Notes under the pieces: model-generated
Database searches by the model: none
What the model saw: the letters and a program-made list of their open reading frames with translations, nothing else
Told to the model about the DNA's origin: nothing
Assembly (NCBI GenBank): GCA_902384525.1
Contig: CABMCA010000125.1
Coordinates: 1 to 43,184 of the forward strand
Origin: an uncultured archaeon
GTDB lineage: Archaea; Halobacteriota; Methanosarcinia; Methanosarcinales; Methanoperedenaceae
Length of the DNA stretch: 43,184 bases
Direction: 5' to 3'
Position numbers and translations under genes: made by a program
Shown here: positions 5,123 to 42,628 of the stretch, piece by piece
Layout: each line of letters begins with the position of its first letter
Position numbering within the stretch: the first letter of the stretch is position 1

Positions 5123-5422
5123 TTACCACCTCAAGATATTGATATTGTCAAGATTGATCGTATCCCGCAACCTGAACAATGCAACAAGTATAGCAAATCC
5201 AATGGCTGCTTCTGCTGCTGCTATGGCAATTGAGAATATTGCAAATATCTGGCCTGTCGCATTGCCATTATAACTTGAGAACGCAACAAGGTTAAGATTT
5301 GCTGAGTTCAAAAGCAGTTCTATGCACATCAGGATTTTGATTCCGCTTCTTTGTGTAATTATTCCATATACACCTATGGTGAATATTATTATCGAAATTA
5401 AGAGATATGAATACAACGACAT
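5123..5422 (-). CDS. fpoK: F420H2 dehydrogenase / complex I membrane subunit K
   Basis: A 99-residue, three-helix NuoK/ND4L protein. I chose the ATG at 5422 (MSLYSYLL) rather than an upstream one because a GGAGG site lies 6 bases before it, the gene then overlaps the preceding J fragment by only a few bases, and the length becomes the family standard of about 100. The two conserved membrane glutamates are visible in [17 protein letters not shown] and [10 protein letters not shown]. It forms part of the proton path linking the membrane arm to the quinone or methanophenazine module. Confidence 0.95.
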
Positions 5423-6335: not shown

Positions 6336-7441
6336 TGGAACACTCCTATGGTCAAAAGGAAACCAGTGACCAGTAAATTAAGTAAAGCCAGAGGTATCAT
6401 GATCTTCCATCCCAGGTTGAGGAGTTGATCTATCCTTACCCTGGGTACTGTATGTCTTAACCACATTGCAAAGAATATTACTGCATAGGTTTTAACAAGA
6501 AATACTCCCAACGATATCAGTGGAACCACTGCCGCTGGAAGTAATGAAAGGTATGGAAATGACCATCCCCCCAGGAACAATGTGACAACAATTGCAGAGA
6601 CTGAGAATAAATGAGCATACTCTGCAAGGAAGAACATTGCAAATTTTATTCCGCTGTATTCAGTGAAGAATCCTGCAACAAGTTCCTGTTCAGATTCCTG
6701 GAAATCAAAGGGTATGCGTCCCATTTCAGCAATGGAAGCAATAAGGAATAAAATGAACCCGAGGGGTTGCAGGAATATGAACCATTTTGGAATAAAGCCA
6801 AACCATGTGCCATTTTGAGCAGTTACAATATCAACAGTACTCAGGGAGCCTGTAAACAAAACAATAGCAATCGCAGAAAGGGCCAGTGGTATTGTATAAC
6901 TTATATCCTGGGCTACGGCCCTCATCGCCCCCATCAATGAATATTTATTATTTGAGGACCAGCCTGCCAGCAAAATCGCAATTGGTGACAAGGCAGATAT
7001 AGCAATCAAATAGAGAAGCCCAACCTTTAGATCTGATATTATCAGTGACTCTCCAAACGGCAGTGGAATAAATATGAGGAGCGCTGGTATGAATACGAGA
7101 AAAGGCGCAAGTGTAAAAACCCACCTGTCAGCTTTTGCAGGAATTATATCCTCTTTTCCAATGAGTTTTACACCATCCATGACTGGCTGGAGCAATCCTC
7201 TTGGGCCCGTTACCATCGGACCGTATCTTGCCTGCACCATTGCGACAACTTTACGTTCCATCCATGTAAGGAACATGATCGTCAGAAGAGCGAAAACCAA
7301 TAGGACCGCAATCTCTGCGAATACTATAATGATTCTCAAAATATACTCGATTCCTAATGTCTTGAATATGTTATTTATAGGTTCATAAATCCCTATGAAA
7401 TTCAAGATGAAAACAATAAGTTCGTAAGCATTTGCAAACAT
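6332..7441 (-). CDS. fpoH: F420H2 dehydrogenase / complex I membrane subunit H
   Basis: A 369-residue eight-helix NuoH/ND1 family protein. Signature stretches are MERKVVAMVQARYGPMVTGP (first cytoplasmic loop), DGVKLIGKEDIIPAKAD, and IAEMGRIPFDFQESEQELVA, the acidic loop lining the quinone chamber. An ATG 45 bases further upstream is open, but I prefer MFANAYELIV at 7441. It has GGTGA just before it and leaves 4 bases after the fpoD stop instead of a 41-base overlap. The protein joins the hydrophilic and membrane arms. Confidence 0.95.
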   Translation of the reverse strand: MFANAYELIVFILNFIGIYEPINNIFKTLGIEYILRIIIVFAEIAVLLVFALLTIMFLTWMERKVVAMVQARYGPMVTGPRGLLQPVMDGVKLIGKEDIIPAKADRWVFTLAPFLVFIPALLIFIPLPFGESLIISDLKVGLLYLIAISALSPIAILLAGWSSNNKYSLMGAMRAVAQDISYTIPLALSAIAIVLFTGSLSTVDIVTAQNGTWFGFIPKWFIFLQPLGFILFLIASIAEMGRIPFDFQESEQELVAGFFTEYSGIKFAMFFLAEYAHLFSVSAIVVTLFLGGWSFPYLSLLPAAVVPLISLGVFLVKTYAVIFFAMWLRHTVPRVRIDQLLNLGWKIMIPLALLNLLVTGFLLTIGVFQ

Positions 7442-7445
7442 TATA

Positions 7446-8594
7446 TCACCGGTCCACATCGCCAAGAACAACATCAATGGTCCCAAAGGCCGCTATCAGG
7501 TCAGGGATCATAAGCCCTTCTACCATTTTAGGTATAGCTGTAAGATTACAGAAAGAGGGTGAACGTATTTTGATCCTGTAGGGTTTAATGGTTCCGTCAC
7601 TTACTATATAAAACCCTAATTCACCTTTAGGCGCCTCGATCCTGCTGTAAACCTCACCTGGCGGCGGGGTGAATATTCTCGGGAAATACGTAGAAACTGC
7701 TGTTGGGGCGCCTGTCATCGGAGCTATCCCATATTTAGCCTGGCTTGCTGGTTTTGCCGGAGGCATAGCATCAACTACCTGTCTTAAAATATGCAGGCTT
7801 TCTCTCATCTCATCTATTCTTACCATGTATCGGGCGAAGCTGTCACATTCATTGCGCACACATACCTTGAAATCAAGGTCAGGATATACGGAATACGGCT
7901 CTAATTTCCTTATATCGTAATTTACGCCATGACCGCGAAGTGACGGACCTGTCATACCATAATTAATAGCATCCTGCGCGCTCATTACCCCTATACCCTT
8001 CATTCTCCCCATGAAAATCTCATTACCGCTGACAAGCTGCTCGTAATCATCAATGCGCTTATCCATATCATTTATGAACTCATTGAGTTTTGGTATGAAG
8101 CCCTCAGGCATGTCTTCCCTTACTCCTCCGGGTTTGATATAATTAAAAGTCATCCTTGCGCCGCATAACATATCAAATAATGCAAGGGCATTCTCTCTTT
8201 CCCTGAATCCGTACATTATCATAGTGGATGCGCCAAGGTCAAGAAGAAGAGAGCCAATCATTACGAGATGGTTCACTATCCTGTTCAGTTCAAGCGTGAG
8301 AACACGTATGTACTCTGCCCTCAACGGAACCTCTATGCCTGCAAGTTCCTCCACGGCCTTAACGTAAGCGTAATTATTGGCAAAAGCCGACATATAATCG
8401 AGCCTGTCCGTGTAGGGAACGAACTGCATATACGTCTTCATCTCCCCCAGCTTTTCTGTCCCTCGATGGAGATATCCCATGACGATTTCGCAATTCCTGA
8501 TTATCTCTCCGTCCATGGTTAACTTAAACCTCAATACACCGTGTGTACTGGGATGAACAGGGCCCATGTTAATTAGAAGTTCATCTGTTTTCAT
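7446..8594 (-). CDS. fpoD: F420H2 dehydrogenase 49-kDa-type subunit D
   Basis: A 382-residue NuoD/49-kDa subunit, related to NiFe-hydrogenase large subunits but without their nickel ligands. The N-terminal loop GPVHPSTHGVLRFKLTMDGE contains the histidine implicated in quinone reduction, MGYLHRGTEKLGE follows, and the C-terminus has the family end FGTIDVVLGDVDR. Together with FpoB it forms the site where methanophenazine or menaquinone is reduced. It is followed 4 bases later by fpoH and preceded 1 base earlier by fpoC. Confidence 0.96.
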   Translation of the reverse strand: MKTDELLINMGPVHPSTHGVLRFKLTMDGEIIRNCEIVMGYLHRGTEKLGEMKTYMQFVPYTDRLDYMSAFANNYAYVKAVEELAGIEVPLRAEYIRVLTLELNRIVNHLVMIGSLLLDLGASTMIMYGFRERENALALFDMLCGARMTFNYIKPGGVREDMPEGFIPKLNEFINDMDKRIDDYEQLVSGNEIFMGRMKGIGVMSAQDAINYGMTGPSLRGHGVNYDIRKLEPYSVYPDLDFKVCVRNECDSFARYMVRIDEMRESLHILRQVVDAMPPAKPASQAKYGIAPMTGAPTAVSTYFPRIFTPPPGEVYSRIEAPKGELGFYIVSDGTIKPYRIKIRSPSFCNLTAIPKMVEGLMIPDLIAAFGTIDVVLGDVDR

Positions 8595-25916: not shown

Positions 25917-26918
25917 TTAAGATACTTCAGTTGACATATTGATAGCTACCTCTGCAATATCTCCGCTGTAGCTCGCAATTCTTCCAAGGCTATCAAGCAT
26001 TGTTTTCATTAAAATAGCAGATTGAATATCTTCTATCTTGAATAATTCTTTTGAAATATCTGAATGGGATTTCTCAATCTTCTTCAATTCATGAAACACA
26101 AGTTCAGCCATTTCATCATTTCTTGTAAATAATGCCTGAACAGATTTTTCGAAAGTTGCAACTATATCCTTTGTGATATCTATAAATTCGTCCAGTTGCG
26201 CTTCTTTTTGAATCTCAAATAACTGGATGTAACTTTTTGCGATGTTTTCAATATGGTCGGCAATTCTTTCAAGAACCTTTACCACAATCCTGTATCCAAG
26301 GCAATCCCTTTGAGATTCTATCCCAAGTTTTTCCGCTATCTGCTGGTATTCTACAGCGCTCTTAAGCTGCCTGACAACTAAAAAATAGAGCCTGTCAATT
26401 TCTTTCTCTCTTGCTATTATATCTTTTGCCAGCCCGATATCCATGTTTTTTAAAGCCTTGCCAAGATCAAGAAGCATCGACCTATCTATGGAGAACATTC
26501 GCTGGAGTATCTGCATGGTACTCATACGTTTATAATCCAGCATTATCTCAAGCGTCATTGCTTCGTTAGTATCTTCGACTATCTCGACACCTATCAAATA
26601 GTCCAAAATGTTCCGTATAATCTCCCTGTATGCAAGATGATCCTTCCGGTCAACTTTTATTTTAATTGTATCATAACCCACCAGATAAAAAGCAATTAAT
26701 ATACGCTCAAGAGCTTCGCTTGATTTTATTTGTGAGATTTTAATTTCCTTCGTTAGTGACTCTTTTTCAATTGTACTGGTCCCGATCAGCAAAGAACTGC
26801 CATGTTCTGTGACCATCAGAGAGTCTCCTGGCTTCAGGTTAGTCTTCTTAACCCATTTTTTTGGTAGTGAAATCACATAAGTTGAACCGCCGCTTACGTA
26901 AACTTTCCGTGCTTCCAT
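25917..26918 (-). CDS. AbrB-PhoU phosphate regulator, copy 1
   Basis: A 333-residue archaeal PhoU-type protein. Residues 1-45 are a swapped-hairpin AbrB/SpoVT DNA-binding domain (MEARKVYVSGGSTYVISLPK, then KWVKKTNLKPGDSLMV). Residues 110-330 are two PhoU three-helix bundles, with conserved acidic patches such as LVVRQLKSA and ERIADHIENIAKSY. In characterised systems PhoU senses phosphate transport status. Here the N-terminal domain suggests that this form binds DNA directly, which is inference. The promoter contains the AT-rich palindromic element seen across this region. A second copy of similar length lies at 37335. Confidence 0.9.
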   Translation of the reverse strand: MEARKVYVSGGSTYVISLPKKWVKKTNLKPGDSLMVTEHGSSLLIGTSTIEKESLTKEIKISQIKSSEALERILIAFYLVGYDTIKIKVDRKDHLAYREIIRNILDYLIGVEIVEDTNEAMTLEIMLDYKRMSTMQILQRMFSIDRSMLLDLGKALKNMDIGLAKDIIAREKEIDRLYFLVVRQLKSAVEYQQIAEKLGIESQRDCLGYRIVVKVLERIADHIENIAKSYIQLFEIQKEAQLDEFIDITKDIVATFEKSVQALFTRNDEMAELVFHELKKIEKSHSDISKELFKIEDIQSAILMKTMLDSLGRIASYSGDIAEVAINMSTEVS

Positions 26919-26943
26919 ATTATCATTACTCTACTGATAGTTT

Positions 26944-31546: not shown

Positions 31547-32403
31547 TTATCCTCCCCGTAAGGCGAATACATGACCATCAACATCACAAAGAAGATTACA
31601 TTGGCTCCAGGCATTATAAAATATATAAATATATCAAAAAATTCACTCGACTTGAACGGCCCTATCTGCCCCCCCATGAGAATACTCCCGACTGTCACGC
31701 CCAGGACTGCCATAATGACCCCGGTACTTATGAATGTTATATACATCTCGCTAAAGAGACCCAGGGACTGGTTTAGCTCTTGTTGCATCTCACGTTTGAT
31801 TATCAGGAGCTGGTCAAGCCTTCCGTGCAGATATGATTCCATGCTTCCGCCGGTATGTGCCATCCTGGTTAATTCAATGAGCATGGAACGCATGTGCGGT
31901 GAAGGTGTGATCCTTGCAACATCTATGGTAGCTGCTATAAAGTCTTTACCCAGAATATCAACAGAATAGATGATTTTCTTGAGTTCACCTGAAACAGCAC
32001 CGTGATCAGAAGACGCAAGCAGATGAATGAGGTTCATTGGAGTTGTGCCTGTGGATGCCAGTATGGACATATGGCTGATAGCAAAAGGTAGATGGCGATC
32101 AATGTCAAGACGCCTGTTCTGGATTTTTGAGGTAAGCTGGAAATAGGATACACCTGAGGACGCTGCAAAAACCAGAAAAGCAGCACTTATAGGATTCATA
32201 ATTTTTATGGGAAGGAGATATAAAATGATCCCGATCACAAGTCCGATTAAGAGTGAACTTACCAGTAAGACAGACAGGAACATGCTGCCCCTGCTATTAA
32301 TTTCTGCCTGGCGAAGAGTTAAAGAGAATTCATTTTCAAGGCTGCTTCCTTCAATATATTTCCCCAGCAGGCGGTAGCATAATTTTTTATAAGAATTATT
32401 CAT
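31543..32403 (-). CDS. Archaeal pilus platform protein, T2SSF domain (first)
   Basis: A 286-residue membrane protein. Two helices around 40-90 (MFLSVLLVSSLLIGLVIGII and IMNPISAAFLVFAASSGVSY) are followed by the cytoplasmic T2SSF bundle (LPFAISHMSILASTGTTPMN ... RMAHTGGSMESYLHGRLDQL). C-terminal helices (SEMYITFISTGVIMAVLGVT and IMPGANVIFFVMLMVMYSPY) complete it. It overlaps the ATPase gene by 4 bases (ATGA) and the second T2SSF gene by 4 bases. The two-platform-gene arrangement is typical of archaeal pili and Tad-type systems. Confidence 0.88.
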   Translation of the reverse strand: MNNSYKKLCYRLLGKYIEGSSLENEFSLTLRQAEINSRGSMFLSVLLVSSLLIGLVIGIILYLLPIKIMNPISAAFLVFAASSGVSYFQLTSKIQNRRLDIDRHLPFAISHMSILASTGTTPMNLIHLLASSDHGAVSGELKKIIYSVDILGKDFIAATIDVARITPSPHMRSMLIELTRMAHTGGSMESYLHGRLDQLLIIKREMQQELNQSLGLFSEMYITFISTGVIMAVLGVTVGSILMGGQIGPFKSSEFFDIFIYFIMPGANVIFFVMLMVMYSPYGEDK

Positions 32404-34124
32404 ATCAAACTAACCTTTTTCAGGAGTTCGTCTGGCAAGCTGTAATATGATTTGAGGATCTTTGCCACATCCTTGTAGTTTGTTATCCCATTCCTGTACA
32501 TCCAGTCGATCACTTTCTCCCGCTGTTCTAATTCCTTTTCCATATACTCGAGCGATATCCAATGCTCGGCTGCTATACTTCCCAGGAGAATATTTTTTCC
32601 AGTGTAATTGGAATGATCCGTATAAGGGTCCCAGTGGAAAACAGTATTCGTAATGAGATTCTTTGTTGCCGGGTCGATCCCTCCTATCTCCACCATGTCT
32701 ATAGCCCGCCTGGCATAGCTGTTGTTAATGCGCATCCTGCTTGCAAAAATCACAAGATCAAGGCTTGCAAGCTGGCTTCGCGGAACGTTCATGGGAAAGG
32801 ATTCAATGCGGTTAACAAGTTCATCCATGGAGCCGGCGTGTATCGTTCCCATGGCAGCATGACCAACTGAGATCGCCTGGAAGAGAGTAATTGCCTCAGC
32901 TCCCCTGACTTCACCAACGATTATATATTCCGGTCTCTGCCTGAGAGCGGCTGTTAACAGTTCATACAGGCCAATATCCCCGCGTTTAGAATTTCCTTTA
33001 CTTTCTTCCCCTCTTCCAAAACCGCTCCTTGTTATGGATTGTATCCAGTTCTCGTGAGGAATGTTGATCTCTGCCGTATCCTCAAGGCTCACGATCTTTG
33101 ATTCTGGTTTTATGAAAAGGCAGATACCGTTTAGCAATGTTGTTTTTCCCGAAGCGGTGCCGCCTGAAACCAGGATCGACTTACCATATTCTACGATAAG
33201 CCAGAGATACGAAAGCTGCTTTGCATTCAGGGTTCCGTATTTTAACAGGTCTATAAAGGAAATCGGCTCCCCCCTGAACCTGCGGATGGTGAAAGATGAG
33301 CCTTTCCTTGTCACCTCGTTACTGTAAGTGAGGTTAATCCTGCTGCCTTCAGGCAGGGTCGCGTCTGTGATGGGATCAAGTATAGAAATATGTCTTCCTG
33401 ATATCTGGGCCATCTTTAATATAAATGAATTTAACTTGTATTCGTTCTCAAACTTCACAAGTGTACGAAGTGATTCAAAGACACGGTGGTAGATATAGAC
33501 GTTCCTGCCCGGGCCGTTGCAGCTTATGTCCTCTATAACGGGATCATTCATCAAAAGGTCTATCTCACCATATCCTATGAAATCCCTCTTAAGAAAATAA
33601 AGCACTTTATCAAGTGTTTCCTTGCTTACTTTTATACCGTATAAGTCAATAATTTCTTCCACTTTTTTATCAATGTATGTATAGCGGTTGGTCTGTATGC
33701 CTCCAATATCCAGATCACCCTCAAAAATACCTTTGATCATCCGGAAGGTTTCGATCTCCTTGCCTTCGATCACAGGCTCAACCGGAATATAAACGAGTTC
33801 TTCGGTGCCGCTATCATAGGCTATCCTGGCAAACTGGTCCTGAGCTAACGGATATGTTATATTTATCTCACGGACAGGTTTATTCTTAAAGGAGATCAGC
33901 GTCTCCATGATATTGGCCTTACGCTCTTCTTTCCTGTCAAGTATCTGTTCCTCAAGCTGTTTAATATGCAATTCAAGTTCAGCACCGTTATTATGTTTGC
34001 TCCCGTTTCCATTCCCTGGGCTGCTTTTTGGAAAAAGATACCCGCGGATGCGCTGGGGAAACTGATTCGATTTAATAAAATTAATGTTTTTAGAAAATGA
34101 TTTCATTCCAGCCGAGAAATGCAT
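32400..34124 (-). CDS. Type IV pilus / secretion ATPase (TadA/GspE-VirB11 family)
   Basis: A 574-residue hexameric assembly ATPase. Residues 1-80 are a poorly conserved, charged N-terminal extension. The N-terminal domain (about 150-300) includes DFIGYGEIDLLMNDPVIEDI, typical of archaeal GspE. The motor domain has Walker A G321GTASGKT328, the Asp box SLEDTAEINIP, Walker B IIVGEVRGAEAI, and the His box HAAMGTIHAGSMDEL. It powers pilin polymerisation through the two T2SSF proteins encoded immediately downstream. The promoter faces the divergent 34208 gene across an 83-base gap holding the regional palindrome. Confidence 0.93.
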   Translation of the reverse strand: MHFSAGMKSFSKNINFIKSNQFPQRIRGYLFPKSSPGNGNGSKHNNGAELELHIKQLEEQILDRKEERKANIMETLISFKNKPVREINITYPLAQDQFARIAYDSGTEELVYIPVEPVIEGKEIETFRMIKGIFEGDLDIGGIQTNRYTYIDKKVEEIIDLYGIKVSKETLDKVLYFLKRDFIGYGEIDLLMNDPVIEDISCNGPGRNVYIYHRVFESLRTLVKFENEYKLNSFILKMAQISGRHISILDPITDATLPEGSRINLTYSNEVTRKGSSFTIRRFRGEPISFIDLLKYGTLNAKQLSYLWLIVEYGKSILVSGGTASGKTTLLNGICLFIKPESKIVSLEDTAEINIPHENWIQSITRSGFGRGEESKGNSKRGDIGLYELLTAALRQRPEYIIVGEVRGAEAITLFQAISVGHAAMGTIHAGSMDELVNRIESFPMNVPRSQLASLDLVIFASRMRINNSYARRAIDMVEIGGIDPATKNLITNTVFHWDPYTDHSNYTGKNILLGSIAAEHWISLEYMEKELEQREKVIDWMYRNGITNYKDVAKILKSYYSLPDELLKKVSLI

Positions 34125-34140
34125 GAACTAAATTAATAAT

Positions 34141-34170
34141 TTATCTATATAGATTATATGAACTATATAC
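34141..34170. promoter_or_regulatory. Palindromic element between pilus ATPase operon and divergent surface-protein gene
   Basis: ATCTATATAGAT (34143-34154) is a perfect 12-bp palindrome; GAACTATATAC follows on the right. It sits 19-46 bases before ATG 34124 (minus) and 38-67 bases before ATG 34208 (plus), so each half may serve one direction. Confidence 0.55.
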
Positions 34171-35681: not shown

Positions 35682-35697
35682 TAATCTATATAGATTA
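35682..35697 (+). promoter_or_regulatory. Perfect 16-bp palindrome at the promoter of the first PstS-like pilin
   Basis: TAATCTATATAGATTA is its own reverse complement. It lies 35-50 bases before ATG 35732 and contains the only TATA-like core there, so a bound repressor would block TBP. The implied leader is about 15 bases. Confidence 0.6.
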
Positions 35698-35731: not shown

Positions 35732-36682
35732 ATGAGATTAATCGATGACACAAAAGCCGTTTCCATGGTCGTATCTGCGCTCCTTCTTATCATAGTGGTG
35801 GCTGGATCCGTAGCATTCCTTGCAGGCACGATGCAGGGCGTGACTTCCCAGACAGATAAGGTTGTCAGCAATGGCAACAGTGCAGACATTGGGGCTATCA
35901 AGATAAATATAATAAGTTCTGACCTTGCTCTTCCTGCAGTGAGCCCGCTCGTAAAAGCTTATAATGATAAGAATCTGGGAGTGAAGCTCCAGTTACAGCA
36001 AAGTGATTCCCTGGGCGGTACTTCTAATGTTTCCATAGGTTCTGTATCTTCTGGTTTAGCAGATATTGGAGTCTCTGACAGGGAACCATCTCCATATGAG
36101 ATGGAAAAATATCCGGACCTGGTAGCCCAGAAGTTTGGCACTTCGGGAATTGTTGTCATAGTTAATGGACCTGGTGACAACTTTAGTAAAGACACTCTCA
36201 GAAGATTTTACAACCACACGGACATTTCACTCACAGCATATCAAATGACAGGTTCTCCAGGTACAGAGGCAGCCTTTTTGGAGTATATAGGAAATAATTC
36301 AATCGATTCAAGCATCACTAATGTTGCAGGCGGTGCCGGAATGCTTGATGCGGTGAAAACCAGGCCATATTCTATAGGATTCATAGAATACGGTTATATT
36401 GACACTCAAGATAAACTTGGAATCGTGCGTATTACTGGTCTTTATAATGAAACTAGCTCTAAAACATACACAAATATGAGTTATTCCAACTTCACGCTTG
36501 CTGCAATCAGCGATAATGTGAACAACTCCTATTATCCCCTGGAGCTTTCACACCCCCTTTACTTTATAACCAGGGGGAAATCATCTCTTGCGGATGCCTT
36601 CGTAAAGTGGGCGCGATCATTTGAAGGACAGGATATTATAGAAAAGAATGGATACATTAGCTATACGAGGGAATTTAGCTGA
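35732..36682 (+). CDS. PstS-like substrate-binding protein with class III prepilin N-terminus, divergent copy
   Basis: A 316-residue protein. The first 35 residues (MRLIDDTKAVSMVVSALLLI, then IVVAGSVAFLAG) are an archaeal prepilin leader and helix, not a lipoprotein or Sec signal. From about residue 52 a type II periplasmic-binding fold follows: INIISSDLALPAVSPLVKAY, SSGLADIGVSDREPS, GTSGIVVIVNGPGD, TGSPGTEAAFLEYIG, RPYSIGFIEYGYID, and LADAFVKWARSFEGQDIIEK. The loop equivalent to the phosphate-binding SGT motif reads SPGTEAAF, so ligand specificity may differ from phosphate. Several sequons suggest glycosylation. No permease genes accompany it. A prepilin peptidase lies 5 kb downstream. Confidence 0.83.
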   Translation: MRLIDDTKAVSMVVSALLLIIVVAGSVAFLAGTMQGVTSQTDKVVSNGNSADIGAIKINIISSDLALPAVSPLVKAYNDKNLGVKLQLQQSDSLGGTSNVSIGSVSSGLADIGVSDREPSPYEMEKYPDLVAQKFGTSGIVVIVNGPGDNFSKDTLRRFYNHTDISLTAYQMTGSPGTEAAFLEYIGNNSIDSSITNVAGGAGMLDAVKTRPYSIGFIEYGYIDTQDKLGIVRITGLYNETSSKTYTNMSYSNFTLAAISDNVNNSYYPLELSHPLYFITRGKSSLADAFVKWARSFEGQDIIEKNGYISYTREFS

Positions 36683-37334: not shown

Positions 37335-38333
37335 ATGATCAATCCAGAAATAAGAAAAGTCCAGATAACAGGAAAATCAACGTTCGTTGTTTCTCTTCCT
37401 AAGAAGTGGGCTATAAATGTCGGAATAACATCAGGTTCCCTTGTTCATATGCACCCCCAGGAGGATGGTTCTCTTCTTTTAACCTCAAACGGCGGTTTGG
37501 CGTCTCAGGGTCCAAAGACCTTAACCATAGATGGGAGGGCAGGCGAGCCGCTGATAAGAGATATAATAGCCACCTACGTTGCCGGATATCGTGTGATCGA
37601 ACTTAAAGCCAAAAATATCACACATGAACAGAAAAAAGACATAACAACTATAGTGAAAAAATTGATAGGCATTGAGATCATCGAAGAGACTCATGATAAG
37701 GTGATAATCCAGGATATCTCAAATCCAGGGGAGATGCCTATCGATATGAGCTTTCGGCGCATGCATATAAAAGTGCAATGGATGCTTGACAATACCATAA
37801 AGGCAATGAACACAAGAGATGTCTCTCTTGCCTCTGAAGTCGTAAAGCAGGATGATGAGATTGACCGCCTTCATCTATTGATATCAAAACAGTTCATGGA
37901 TATTTTACTTCATTCGAGGATATCCGAAAAAAGTGAACTCGGATTGACAGGGGCATTCTACTACAGGCTGGCAAGCGACCAGTTAGAGCGTGTGTCAGAC
38001 CATGCTGGTAAGATCGCTGGCATAATACTGGAATCAGATGAAAAAATTCCTCACGCTATGCTTGAAGATATTGTTAAAATCGGGATTGTTTCTTACAGGC
38101 TTGTCAATGATTCTGTCATTTCTTTTACAAAATGCAATGTAGAACTTGCAAACAGGATTATTGACGAACATAAAAAAATAGGCGAAGATCTGCGAAAAAT
38201 CAGAAACATTTCAACAGGTATGAATCCTGACGCTGTCATGTCCCTGGGCCTTATAGCAGACAGTGTGAAAAGGATAGGGGATTATGCTGCAAATGTCGCA
38301 GAGTTAGCCATTGACTTCTCTAAAAGTATATAG
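37335..38333 (+). CDS. AbrB-PhoU phosphate regulator, copy 2
   Basis: A 332-residue paralogue of the protein at 25917, with the same layout. The N-terminal AbrB/SpoVT domain is KVQITGKSTFVVSLPKKWAI, then NVGITSGSLVHM. Two PhoU bundles follow (FRRMHIKVQWMLDNTIKAMN; YRLASDQLERVSDHAGKIAG; LIADSVKRIGDYAANVAELA). The two proteins are clearly diverged, so this is not a recent duplication. It is surrounded by the two PstS-like pilin genes, supporting a phosphate theme for the whole cluster. Whether it senses phosphate via an unseen transporter or the pilins is unknown. Confidence 0.9.
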   Translation: MINPEIRKVQITGKSTFVVSLPKKWAINVGITSGSLVHMHPQEDGSLLLTSNGGLASQGPKTLTIDGRAGEPLIRDIIATYVAGYRVIELKAKNITHEQKKDITTIVKKLIGIEIIEETHDKVIIQDISNPGEMPIDMSFRRMHIKVQWMLDNTIKAMNTRDVSLASEVVKQDDEIDRLHLLISKQFMDILLHSRISEKSELGLTGAFYYRLASDQLERVSDHAGKIAGIILESDEKIPHAMLEDIVKIGIVSYRLVNDSVISFTKCNVELANRIIDEHKKIGEDLRKIRNISTGMNPDAVMSLGLIADSVKRIGDYAANVAELAIDFSKSI

Positions 38334-38441
38334 AGTTCGGGCTGATTATAACCCACATTCCGTACCCTTTACTTTTATAAATTTTAATTTAAGTATACAG
38401 CCGTAGTATTTTGGAAACTTTTATTATCTTCTGGTTTGAGA

Positions 38442-38510
38442 AACCACAGAGAGCACAGAGTACACAGAGAAAAGCGCCAAAGCTCTGTTCTCTCTGTGTA
38501 CTCTGTGGTT
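38442..38510. repeat. CACAGAG-type interrupted palindrome
   Basis: AACCACAGAG (38442-38451) and TACACAGAGA (38461-38470) on the left are exactly complementary to TCTCTGTGTA (38491-38500) and CTCTGTGGTT (38501-38510) on the right. A short extra block, AGCACAGAG, lies between the left halves. Such CACAGAG-rich palindromes are dispersed intergenic repeats in many genomes. The rest of the 360-base gap is AT-rich and contains only the promoter of the next gene. Confidence 0.65.
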
Positions 38511-38648
38511 GATTTTCCTTGTGATGAACCATTTCTCCAGAATAAATTGAAAAAATCTCGCATTTTGGTTTAAATTTTTGCAATTACTAACAAGGGTACA
38601 GAATAAGGGTTATAATATTACAGCATCGTTATTTTTTTTTCTGTTTTG

Positions 38649-38677
38649 TTCTATATACTTTATTGTTTCTATATAGG
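38649..38677 (+). promoter_or_regulatory. Paired TTCTATATA elements before a small membrane protein gene
   Basis: TTCTATATAC at 38649-38658 and TTTCTATATAGG at 38666-38677 are two copies of the regional motif in direct orientation, 17 bases apart. They precede the 38694 gene and can act as TATA box plus a regulator site. Confidence 0.45.
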
Positions 38678-38937: not shown

Positions 38938-39414
38938 ATGAAAGAACTTCGTACTGAAATCGAAATCCAGGCATCTGCAGAGAGGGTATGGCAAATACTC
39001 ACAGATTTTGCCAATTTTCCAAACTGGAATCCGTTTATCCGCAAGGCAATCGGGGAACCCGGAATAGGGGCACATCTGGAAGTGTTCCTCCAGCCTTCCG
39101 GCGCAAGGGGCATGACTTTTCGGCCTGAAGTCCTAAAGGCCGAGCCAAACCGTGAACTGCGCTGGCTAGGGCACTTGCTTGTACCTGGCCTGTTCGATGG
39201 GGAGCATATTTTTACTATTGAGCCGCTGGAAGCAAACCGTGTGCGCTTTATACAGCGCGAAATCTTCACAGGCTTGCTTGTCCCTCTTTTTATGCGCTGG
39301 CTGCATACTGAAACACTTCGCGGCTTTGAAGAAATGAATCATGCTCTTAAGATACGGGCGGAAAGCCTGCATTTTGTTATTTCAAAAAAAAATAGACTAT
39401 ATAACTCTATATAG
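38938..39414 (+). CDS. SRPBCC (START/polyketide-cyclase-like) domain protein
   Basis: A 158-residue single-domain protein. The N-terminus MKELRTEIEIQASAERVWQI, then LTDFANFPNWNPFIRK, and the end helix MRWLHTETLRGFEEMNHALK are standard for the SRPBCC hydrophobic-cavity superfamily. It binds a small hydrophobic ligand or lipid; the ligand is unknown. Its last codons (RLYNSI then TAG) lie inside the first copy of the triplicated promoter palindrome, so the gene end and the regulatory element overlap. The preceding context (small membrane protein 50 bases upstream) does not reveal a pathway. Confidence 0.82.
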   Translation: MKELRTEIEIQASAERVWQILTDFANFPNWNPFIRKAIGEPGIGAHLEVFLQPSGARGMTFRPEVLKAEPNRELRWLGHLLVPGLFDGEHIFTIEPLEANRVRFIQREIFTGLLVPLFMRWLHTETLRGFEEMNHALKIRAESLHFVISKKNRLYNSI

Positions 39415-39450
39415 TTTATGATGATTATCCTGAAATAGTTTCTGAAATTA
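39387..39450 (+). promoter_or_regulatory. Triplicated promoter block, copy 1
   Basis: The core at 39392-39419 is an interrupted palindrome: ATAGACTATAT, a 6-base spacer, ATATAGTTTAT. It is followed by a conserved tail (TTATCCTGAAATAGTTT, then AAATTA). The same roughly 64-base block recurs at 39621 and 39838. Spacing from the TATA core places transcription start near 39426-39440, just before the first RNA hairpin. The stop codon of the SRPBCC gene lies in it. Confidence 0.7.
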
Positions 39451-39610
39451 TAACAGGCTGGCGCGAAAAACACACACTGCGCCGGCAAAACTCGAATAAA
39501 CGTAGCAGGAATATGAAGCCCTGATAAAAAGTCTTTTTTTGTCTTCATAAGGGCTTCATTCATTCCGGAACTGTGCCCTGATTCTCCTCTTCAGGGCATG
39601 GGTTTTTCAA
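39437..39610 (+). ncRNA. Putative structured small RNA, tandem copy 1
   Basis: A sequence with no sizeable ORF but three good stems. Stem 1 is GCTGGCGC/GCGCCGGC (39437-39444 with 39479-39486, one G-T pair), and it is followed by AAAACTCGAA. Stem 2 is ATGAAGCCCT/AGGGCTTCAT (39513-39522 with 39550-39559). Stem 3 is TGCCCTGA/TCAGGGCA (39574-39581 with 39591-39598), followed by GGGTTTTTC, a terminator-like tail. The same order of elements appears in copy 2. The boundaries are approximate. A regulatory RNA made from its own promoter is the best reading. Confidence 0.5.
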
Positions 39611-39620
39611 CTCTGGAGAA

Positions 39621-39684
39621 TAAAAATAGATTATATGATTCTATATAGTCTATGAGGCTTATCCTATTATAGTTTCCAAAATTA
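39621..39684 (+). promoter_or_regulatory. Triplicated promoter block, copy 2
   Basis: The core at 39626-39653 is ATAGATTATAT, 6 bases, CTATATAGTCTAT, followed by GAGGCTTATCC, then ATAGTTTCCAAAATTA. It is highly similar to copies 1 and 3 and lies 234 bases after copy 1. It presumably drives the second structured RNA. Confidence 0.7.
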
Positions 39685-39830
39685 TATTAACTCCGGTGGC
39701 TCACACACTTGCCGCCAAAACGCCGAAAAAGATGAACCCTTACTTACTCATTCTTTTGCCATGGTAAGGGTTTCTGTCACGTCGAAACCATGCCCCCCGC
39801 ATAGGGAGAGCGGGGGCGCTGGTTTCATGT
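39685..39830 (+). ncRNA. Putative structured small RNA, tandem copy 2
   Basis: Stem 1 is GGTGGC/GCCGCC (39695-39700 with 39711-39716), loop TCACACACTT, followed by AAAACGCCGAA. Stem 2 is AACCCTTAC/GTAAGGGTT (39735-39743 with 39764-39772). Stem 3 is GAAACCA/TGGTTTC (39784-39790 with 39820-39826), continued inward by GCCCCC(C)GC/GCGGGGGC. Stem positions match copy 1, but stem sequences differ while pairing is kept. No ORF of note. Boundaries approximate. Confidence 0.5.
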
Positions 39831-39837
39831 TTGAAAA

Positions 39838-39901
39838 TAAAAATAGACTATAGTACTCTCTATAGTTTATGAGGGTTCTCCTAAAATAGTTTATGAAATT
39901 A
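39838..39901 (+). promoter_or_regulatory. Triplicated promoter block, copy 3 (promoter of the PstS-pilin gene)
   Basis: The core at 39843-39870 is ATAGACTATAG, 6 bases, TCTATAGTTTAT, then GAGGGTTCTCCT and ATAGTTTATGAAATTA. It lies 217 bases after copy 2 and about 160 bases before ATG 40027, so the PstS-pilin mRNA should carry a leader of about 130-150 bases. Confidence 0.7.
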
Positions 39902-40026
39902 GTATGATCGGTGATGCTATAAATCCGTGTCCGCCAAACTTCGAATTGAAAGCACATAATACTCAGAGGGCATGCCGGTGGGCATCACTTAAACATTGGA
40001 TAGAAAAAACAAAGGAGAACATAAAA
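39902..40026 (+). promoter_or_regulatory. Structured 5' leader of the PstS-pilin gene
   Basis: The leader starts with a reduced version of stem 1 (GGTG 39910-39913 with CGCC 39932-39935), followed by AAACTTCGAA, the same signature as after stem 1 in the two upstream RNAs. Outer complementarity GTGATGC/GGCATCAC and an inner hairpin ATGCC-GGTG-GGCAT (39972-39985) lie nearer the gene. AAAGGAG at 40011-40017 is the ribosome binding site. An upstream ATG at 39904 is in frame but would put the pilin leader 41 residues inside the protein, so I treat this stretch as untranslated. Confidence 0.5.
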
Positions 40027-41094
40027 ATGGTAAACACTAAAGGAATAAGAGCATTCCTGCATGACGCAAAAGCCGTCTCGCCAGCAATCGCGACATTGAT
40101 TTTGATCGTGATCGCAGCAGTGGCAGCAGCAGGCGTAGGAATACTTGTACAGTCCTCGCAGAAGAATGCGCAGGATCAGACAGGGAACAAAAATCTTGAC
40201 GTAATGGGAACCATCAATATCAAAGGCAGCACAACAGTAATGCCTATAACACAGGGCGCAGCAGAAGTATTCATGAAGAAGTACCCGGCTGTAACAATTA
40301 ACGTAGGCGGCGGCGGCTCAGAGGTCGGACAGTTGCTTGCATGGACTACAGCCAGCCCGAAAGAAGATATTGGCGCAAGCTCATCCAAATGGTCAACAGA
40401 CGATAAAACGATAAACGGCATACTCATACCAAAGAGAGCGACGGCCATTATCCAGGAAGCTGGAGAAAGTGCAAAAGTCTTTGAGACAAAGATTGGAACA
40501 GGCATGATCGTTCTGGCAGGACAGAACACAATGGACATAGTTAACACCACTGGTTGCGTAAGCAACACGACCTCTATATGCTATGGAGATTTGAAGGCAG
40601 CATATGCAGGAACCGGTCAAATTGGAACAACTGGTTTAACCGTAATCCAGCGCAGCGACAAATCAGGAACTGAAGAGACATTCGCAGCATGGATTGGTCT
40701 TGTCAAATCAGATGACAAACAGCTTAATTCAAATGTTACAGGCTACCAGGGCAACCAGGGCATAAGAGATGCTATCGCATCAAATCCTAACTTAGTCGGT
40801 TTCGTTGATGTTGGCTTCACCGGTTCATTCCTGAACGGTAATGCCAAAGTAGTAGCTGCAACCATGAACAACACAAAAGCCGAAGATGCTAACAAGGGCG
40901 TAGGCAAAACATATGACATTCAGAGCATATCACTGACTGGCATAACAGACGTAACCAAGCAGAAAGGACTTGCAAGAGACCTCTTCTATTACAATCAGGG
41001 CATACCCACAGGTGCAATCAAAACATATCTTGACTGGATTATGACTCCTGACGGACAGAAGGTTGTACAGAACGAAGGATTCTTCAGCATTTAA
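40027..41094 (+). CDS. PstS-type phosphate-binding protein with class III prepilin N-terminus
   Basis: A 355-residue protein starting MVNTKGIRAFLHDAKAVSPA, with the hydrophobic pilin helix IATLILIVIAAVAAAGVGIL; KAVSPAIAT is a typical archaeal prepilin cleavage region. The remainder is a clear PstS fold: INIKGSTTVMPITQGAAEVF, VTINVGGGGSEVGQLL, DIGASSSKW, VIQRSDKSGTEETFAAWIG (phosphate-binding SGT loop), YQGNQGIRDAIASNPNLVGF, and TYLDWIMTPDGQKVVQNEGF at the end. It would be displayed at the cell surface or built into a filament rather than anchored as a lipoprotein. AAAGGAG fixes the start. Regulation involves the promoter block and structured leader upstream. No PstCAB genes are nearby. Confidence 0.9.
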   Translation: MVNTKGIRAFLHDAKAVSPAIATLILIVIAAVAAAGVGILVQSSQKNAQDQTGNKNLDVMGTINIKGSTTVMPITQGAAEVFMKKYPAVTINVGGGGSEVGQLLAWTTASPKEDIGASSSKWSTDDKTINGILIPKRATAIIQEAGESAKVFETKIGTGMIVLAGQNTMDIVNTTGCVSNTTSICYGDLKAAYAGTGQIGTTGLTVIQRSDKSGTEETFAAWIGLVKSDDKQLNSNVTGYQGNQGIRDAIASNPNLVGFVDVGFTGSFLNGNAKVVAATMNNTKAEDANKGVGKTYDIQSISLTGITDVTKQKGLARDLFYYNQGIPTGAIKTYLDWIMTPDGQKVVQNEGFFSI

Positions 41095-41807: not shown

Positions 41808-41869
41808 TCATGGAAAAGGCGAAAGAAATCAATATTCAGTTAAAATAACATATCGTCCGGGAGGATTTG

Positions 41870-42628
41870 ATGGAACAGAGAGTGTTTGATATTTTAAAAA
41901 TCTTATTCTGCACGCCGTTTCTGCTTTACGCATGTTATTCGGATATTAAAAAGCGCAGGGTGACCAATAATGTATGGCTGGTAATGCTTGTTGGCAGCAT
42001 TTTTTCTATTTCTTATGAGTTCTCGCTATACAAGGAACTTGCTCTGCGTCCATTGATTATTTCAGCAGGATTCATCTTCATACTTGCCTGTATCCTTTTT
42101 AAAATCGGCGCATTCGGCGGGGCTGACGCCAAAGCGATTATGGTCATGTCATTGATCATTCCGACCTATCCGGTTTTCCAGACCCTGGGATATGCTTTTC
42201 CCCTGAATAAACCCATCTATGATATTTTTGCCCTGAGTATCTTAGGCAATGCAGCACTGCTGATTGCTGTCGTTCCCATCGGGCTGGCTTTATATAACCT
42301 GGCGGAAATGGGTTTAAATTTCGATAATCCGGCATATATTTTCATGGGTTATAAAACGAGAATTTCAAAGCTTGCGGGCAAACATATCCGGTTGATCCAG
42401 GGTTTTGAAATGACAGATGGCAGGGTCAGATCCTGTTTTAAATTGGGCGGTATGGAAATTAACGAGAAAACGATCAGGGAGCTTAAGAATCTGTCAGGGA
42501 AGTGTTTAATAAAAGACGAGGTCTGGGTGACCCCGGAGTTGCCTTTTATGATCCCCATAACATTAGGTTTTTTCACGGCTGTTTTCTATGGCGATCTGAT
42601 GTTTGAATTAATCAGATTTCTCCTGTGA
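41870..42628 (+). CDS. Archaeal prepilin peptidase (A24 aspartic protease family)
   Basis: A 252-residue membrane protease. GGGAGGA 5 bases upstream supports ATG 41870 over the TTG at 41867. Catalytic aspartates are D25 in YACYSDIKKRRVTNNVW and D87 in IGAFGGADAKAIMVM, the A24 signature (D...K.R...N and GxFGGADxK). About six membrane helices are present, with a soluble insertion at about 160-225 (YKTRISKLAGKHIRLIQGFE ... DEVWVTPELPF), as in larger FlaK/EppA-like archaeal peptidases. It would remove the charged leaders of the prepilins encoded in this window. Confidence 0.9.
   Translation: MEQRVFDILKILFCTPFLLYACYSDIKKRRVTNNVWLVMLVGSIFSISYEFSLYKELALRPLIISAGFIFILACILFKIGAFGGADAKAIMVMSLIIPTYPVFQTLGYAFPLNKPIYDIFALSILGNAALLIAVVPIGLALYNLAEMGLNFDNPAYIFMGYKTRISKLAGKHIRLIQGFEMTDGRVRSCFKLGGMEINEKTIRELKNLSGKCLIKDEVWVTPELPFMIPITLGFFTAVFYGDLMFELIRFLL

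Follow-up and report, generated by a model that had tools for sequence, protein, structure and literature searches.

Tandem sets of small RNA (sRNA) genes are known from bacteria, where PrrF1/PrrF2 and LhrC are associated with iron or envelope stress. In archaea, a role has been established for only a few small RNAs. sRNA132 of Haloferax volcanii, a 138-nt RNA with its own promoter that is confined to one genus, has been linked to the expression of a phosphate ABC transporter under phosphate starvation (PMC6560208). As cited in the same paper, sRNA257 of Sulfolobus solfataricus is connected with a phosphate transporter mRNA as a negative regulator acting on a 3' untranslated region, and the pho-boxes of Halobacterium salinarum are promoter elements of phosphate transporter operons that are bound by PhoU regulators (PMC6560208). 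The nitrogen-linked sRNA154 of Methanosarcina mazei pairs with mRNAs through its loops (PMC5867862). No small RNA from the genus considered here was found in the literature searched, the coverage of which was partial.

The window analyzed in this work, a whole stretch of 43,184 nucleotides, belongs to a genome that encodes a methyl-coenzyme M reductase alpha subunit (closest PDB entries 9qr1 and 9qqt, next to 1e6y), and the host, an archaeon of the methane-oxidizing type, is probably Ca. Methanoperedens. We consider it likely, with a probability of about 0.7, that the window contains tandem sRNA genes placed ahead of a gene for a phosphate-binding, pilin-type protein (PstS-pilin), served by one promoter type and co-expressed with phosphate acquisition.

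Tandem promoter blocks in a phosphate and pilin gene cluster

Three gapless copies of a ∼67-bp block, 81 to 87% identical, were found in the window (Table 1), each with a 28-bp palindrome (ATAGACTATAT-N6-ATATAGTTTAT) as its core, followed at rigid spacing by a downstream AATAGTTT-N5-ATTA element. Blocks 1 and 2 precede structured segments of ∼140 to 160 nt, and block 3 precedes the 5' leader of the PstS-pilin gene. The palindrome pattern gave six matches in the window (three sites, both strands) versus 0.02 expected, and these three sites were the only intact ones in the whole 2.92-Mb genome, weaker matches being about as frequent as those of a reversed control pattern. Together with those of related loci, 22 promoters could be aligned without gaps over about 60 bp, the TATA-region element lying exactly 24 bp away from the right palindrome arm. 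The pilin promoter was 83 to 96% identical between species, and its coding sequence was 68 to 79% identical. Judging from this arrangement, the tandem blocks would drive the units and the pilin gene, each from its own promoter copy, with transcription starts predicted to a precision no better than several bases.

Besides two PstS-like proteins and an AbrB-PhoU protein, the surrounding cluster encodes a secretion/pilus ATPase and a prepilin peptidase. It continues with pstS/C/A/B-like genes in genome G020 and includes an alkaline phosphatase in its continuation in G018 and G021, as read by eye from the translations with no family search. A clear pilin-type N terminus was recognized in the PstS-like protein behind block 3, whose orthologues within the genus share 48 to 75% identity and, for the most part, carry the same cassettes upstream. 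A relative of this protein was not found in viral contigs, and a scan of genome contigs returned only distant bacterial PstS relatives. The two PstS-like genes lie near a pilus/archaellum-type ATPase (32400 to 34124), a FlaJ-like protein, and the prepilin peptidase (41867 to 42628); a phosphate-binding, bindosome-like assembly of the two proteins and the nearby pilus-type products is possible. An imperfect inverted repeat of the CCACAGAGAGCACAGAG type was observed at window positions 38440 to 38520 and also near the locus in L013 and L052.

An orthologue of the AbrB-PhoU protein (79 to 94% identity) was detected in 13 genomes, in one of them split over two contigs. The RNA units described below occurred in 9 of these 13 genomes versus 0 of the 18 genomes without an orthologue (Fisher p = 3.5e-5), the gene lying at a contig end in three of the four unit-free carriers (G014, G022, and G023), so that the absence of units is not established there. 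Such co-occurrence could result from mere linkage in one gene cluster. The sequence CTATATAG, which corresponds to the palindrome core, occurs five times in the window, always between 34145 and 39641 and just upstream of a gene or unit, and in G018 it is found just upstream of the alkaline phosphatase gene. Halves stand ahead of PstS-like, unit, and alkaline phosphatase genes, and the full palindrome is present at the PstS-pilin locus only. Sites of this type are candidate markers of an AbrB-PhoU regulon. Separately, CTATATAG-type sites precede several phosphate/pilin-cluster genes between 34145 and 42680, and a second AbrB-PhoU-like protein is encoded at 25929 to 26921, with 29% identity to the first.

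Table 1. Features of the locus in window coordinates (fold z, folding compared with shuffled sequence)
Feature	Position	Strand	Evidence or elements
CTATATAG half-site-like element	34145-34152	.	Upstream of 34208 CDS
CTATATAG half-site-like element	35686-35693	.	Upstream of PstS-like protein 35732-36682
Second PstS-like protein	35732-36682		
AbrB-PhoU regulator (N-terminal MazE/AbrB-like domain plus PhoU)	37335-38333	+	Pfam PhoU 9e-26; MazE_antitoxin 6e-4, below its cut-off
CTATATAG half-site-like element	38669-38676	.	Upstream of short membrane-protein CDS
Promoter block 1	39387-39450 (gapless copy 39384-39450)	+	Palindrome 39392-39419; TATA-region element 39434-39450 (AATAGTTTCTGAAATTA)
RNA unit 1 (type A)	39455-39612	+	R1 match 39456-39609, 94.5 bits; fold z -5.96
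Unit 1 stem 1	39457-39465/39478-39486		
Unit 1 stem 2	39513-39521/39551-39559		ATGAAGCCC/GGGCTTCAT
Unit 1 stem 3	about 39570-39580/39591-39604		U-rich tail
Promoter block 2	39621-39684 (gapless copy 39618-39684)	+	Palindrome 39626-39653; TATA-region element 39668-39684
RNA unit 2 (type B)	39690-39832	+	R1 match 39691-39829, 96.3 bits; fold z -4.34
Unit 2 stems	Stem 1 39695-39700/39711-39716; stem 2 within 39731-39778; stem 3 within 39779-39830		
Promoter block 3	39838-39901 (gapless copy 39835-39901)	+	Palindrome 39843-39870; TATA-region element 39885-39901
Structured 5' leader of PstS-pilin mRNA	39908-40026	+	R2 match 104 bits; 98.1% of cells paired
Leader elements	P1 39910-39918/39981-39989; inner P2 near 39925-39933/39968-39979; Shine-Dalgarno 40012-40017		Shine-Dalgarno AAGGAG
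PstS-like substrate-binding protein (PBP_like_2), N-terminal class III/pilin-type signal	40027-41094	+	Pfam 3.9e-11; PstS chains in PDB; N terminus read

A family of three-hairpin RNA units

With the covariance model R1, built from 14 units, 20 tandem units were detected at E ≤ 6e-8 in 9 of the 31 genomes of the genus (1 to 4 per genome), the 14 training units matching by construction and the six in G005, G008, and G018 being the independent finds. Four units were present in G016, three in G005, two each in G000, G021, G026, G017, G028, and G008, and one in G018, all of them at the PstS-pilin/phosphate locus and none elsewhere. The retrained model R3, run over 238 genomes of the class, returned the same nine genomes and no others. 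Weak reverse-strand R1 matches were discarded as mirror images of self-complementary hairpins. Three subtypes could be distinguished: type 0, which occupies the first position, lacks stem 1, and has a divergent promoter; type A, which carries AGGAGGAATATGAAGCCC or a near variant; and type B, the kind of window unit 2, which is 92% identical to its counterpart in G021.

In the 20-unit alignment, 84.7% of the cells pair in the three-hairpin fold, versus 37 to 49% when the partners are slid. There were 25 double-changed cells in 10 pairs compared with 11.3 after shuffling, a level reached by 0 of 500 shuffles; since the shuffles ignore the relatedness among units, these counts are not probabilities. 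Most of the covariation falls in hairpin 3, and hairpin 2 (TGAAGCCC/GGGCTTCA) is nearly invariant in sequence. This alignment (A4) was fitted to the model and hence leans to the structure, but a similar result had been obtained with the first MAFFT alignment, A1. No open reading frame (ORF) of at least 80 aa was found across the units, and pairing of the GGAGG linker with loop 2 as a pseudoknot was rejected (mean z, 0.03).

The preliminary description had read the locus as three tandem promoter-like blocks, two driving related structured RNAs and the third the PstS-pilin gene, in agreement with the three gapless block copies and with the loci of the relatives. The compensatory change that it placed in stem 1 does exist (C-G in unit 1 versus G-C in unit 2, beside a kept U-G pair), but the positions it gave, C38-G85 and G96-C715, map to nothing usable. 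Its two further stems were found in units 1 and 2 in the same order. The proposed signature CCAAA(A)C...CGAA is carried by all three window copies (as GCAAAAC in unit 1), but the CGAA part is missing from most homologues. Conservation of RNA structure, which it had argued from stem 1, is now backed by covariation in both the units and the leader. It knew of no described family of this form; no Rfam family scored above its gathering threshold, and no Rfam riboswitch matched even at E ≤ 10, the leader included. A known repeat or insertion sequence, the alternative that it had named, was rejected, as were dispersed repeats in general and a MITE, with only three intact palindrome sites in the genome and no similar plasmid sequence found.

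Several relatives have lost parts of the locus. G018 retains one unit and a promoter stump, with leader and pilin gene absent; in G008, two units and the leader stand before a broken pilin gene; and in G005 three units and the leader are followed by an insertion ahead of the pilin gene. Thus, units can be present where the pilin gene is no longer intact, but these losses could be recent. In L053 (G008), at about 5264 to 5320 on the reverse strand, a unit remnant (promoter part plus GGCGGAGAGCCTGTATTTTT) stands directly before the leader. In L052 (G005, reverse strand, 6880 to 8000), a CACTGAGGCACAGAG-type repeat and two ORFs, which look like a VapBC/AbrB toxin-antitoxin pair, lie between leader and pilin gene. 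In the window, positions 39355 to 39384 (GGAAAGCCTGCATTTT) match the 3' arm and tail of the type-0 hairpin 3 (GGAAAGCCTGCAATTTT in G028), and are probably what is left of a first unit that was deleted; they now form the end of a cyclase-like ORF (38938 to 39414), which runs into palindrome 1.

The leader of the PstS-pilin mRNA

The leader behind block 3 was present in nine genomes, always at the PstS-pilin locus, and G020 has it together with the pilin gene and no unit. In an alignment of nine species, about 98% of the cells of its helix P1 (GGTGATGC/GCATCACY) are paired, and its covariation score was reached by 0 of 500 shuffles. The single-sequence fold gave a z of -0.24 against shuffles; the helices nonetheless covary between species. 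The hairpin first assigned to this third copy can be formed, as a short stem (GGUG/CGCC), but it competes with the longer conserved P1, so that unit 3 is a different RNA and not a third copy of the unit fold. The leader is thus a distinct, conserved RNA, and possibly a regulatory one.

Two weak matches to the leader, in G030 and G104 (E about 0.04), lie in surroundings that, by eye, are unlike the locus, the one in G030 inside protein-coding sequence, and they look like chance. A reading of the leader as coding sequence (a 396-aa ORF from 39904) was also rejected, the upstream extension being shared by G021 and missing from the ORFs of the other genomes. Beside the Shine-Dalgarno sequence, the leaders of G026, G016, and G028 contain a small hairpin, CCAA/TTGG, which in G028 is CCTA/TAGG, possibly a compensatory change.

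Proposed role and comparison with described systems

The transcription, phosphate response, regulator, and targets that we infer for the units are as follows. The palindrome would be the Pho-box-like operator of the genus, bound by the neighboring AbrB-PhoU protein, and, if it is the operator of that protein, all palindrome promoters would be activated jointly under phosphate scarcity. Every unit would give an RNA of ∼140 to 160 nt ending after hairpin 3, and the presence of 1 to 4 divergent copies would raise the dosage and diversify the targets. Hairpins 2 and 3 have long loops rich in pyrimidines, which might then base-pair in trans with phosphate-response mRNAs, by analogy with the loops of sRNA154 in the nitrogen response; we advance this step tentatively and hold it to be rather doubtful. 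When loops 2 and 3 were tested for anti-Shine-Dalgarno pairing at the start site of their cognate pilin gene, they did no better than shuffled loops (mean z, -0.38 and +0.26), and this pairing was rejected; no anti-Shine-Dalgarno enrichment was found in the unit loops. All in all, co-expressed phosphate-stress sRNAs acting in trans, after the examples of sRNA132 in Haloferax and sRNA154 in Methanosarcina, would be the most economical model, and the family probably helps the cell to respond to phosphate shortage.

Units and leader share a promoter and a 5' segment (CTGGYG...CCGCCAAAC), with the same start bases at the same promoter distance, and the leader is strongly conserved and structured. 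The units could therefore be decoys (sponges) that titrate away some binding partner of the leader, be it a protein, a ligand, or another RNA. However, units and leader resemble each other over only some 40 nt at the start, the pairing of the main leader helix P1 is quite unlike that of the units, type-0 units have no stem 1, and a duplicated promoter and transcript start would also explain the shared beginning, which leaves decoys unlikely. That the units are functionless copies of the pilin promoter and leader undergoing erosion is in agreement with a copy number of 0 to 4 and with the unit remnants in the window and G008; it is nevertheless very improbable, given that hairpin pairing is kept through double changes in nine species and that the stem 2 sequence hardly varies in 20 units.

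Wherever they were found, the units lie on the same strand as the pilin gene or its remains and directly upstream of it, as they would if the array were a single long multi-promoter 5' untranslated region with hairpins serving as processing or attenuation sites. Yet each unit closes with a GC-rich hairpin and a short U-rich tail, after which the next complete promoter follows; G018 retains a unit without leader or pilin gene, G008 retains two units beside a broken pilin gene, and G020 has leader and gene with zero units, so that we regard a long untranslated region as quite unlikely. Short peptides encoded by type-A units from the conserved AGGAGGAATATG start are scarcely credible: a ribosome-binding site and ATG do occur in several of these units, but the products, of 3 to 41 aa, have unrelated ends and are not conserved, window unit 1 stops after three codons, and one G008 unit has ACG in place of the start codon. 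It also seems improbable that the leader is an undescribed cis-regulatory RNA switching between the 5' GGUG/CGCC hairpin and the long-range helix P1 with phosphate status, and that the tandem sRNAs derive from its 5' module and adjust it in trans, the two forming one combined phosphate circuit of an anaerobic methane-oxidizing archaeon.

The units are best read as a new, undescribed, genus-restricted RNA family of a known kind, the archaeal sRNA; what is unusual is that an array of sRNAs and a structured leader occur together behind one promoter. A covarying RNA family fixed to a phosphate cluster comes with named transcripts, a candidate regulator, and a candidate operator, all open to checking in existing metatranscriptomes, and the leader adds another candidate regulatory RNA of its own. 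Like PrrF1/PrrF2 and LhrC, the units are related sRNA genes in tandem that would share their control, but those sets are bacterial, have other folds, and share no promoter with an adjacent structured mRNA leader. sRNA154, from a methanogen, is likewise structured and nutrient-linked, with hairpin loops as proposed pairing sites, but it is linked to nitrogen, its targets are known, and it has no shared promoter array. sRNA257 is also an archaeal sRNA with a phosphate-transporter connection, although it acts on a 3' untranslated region as a negative regulator and is cited in PMC6560208 with no mention of a tandem array of this kind. The palindrome, as a candidate element for a PhoU-type regulator, is comparable in kind to the H. 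salinarum pho-boxes. For its part, sRNA132 consists of two stems and a pyrimidine-rich linker and lies between hypothetical-protein genes, whereas the units form three hairpins in 1 to 4 tandem copies beside PstS-pilin and PhoU genes; in common with it, they are archaeal intergenic RNAs of similar length, limited to one genus and linked to phosphate, here by locus and sequence.
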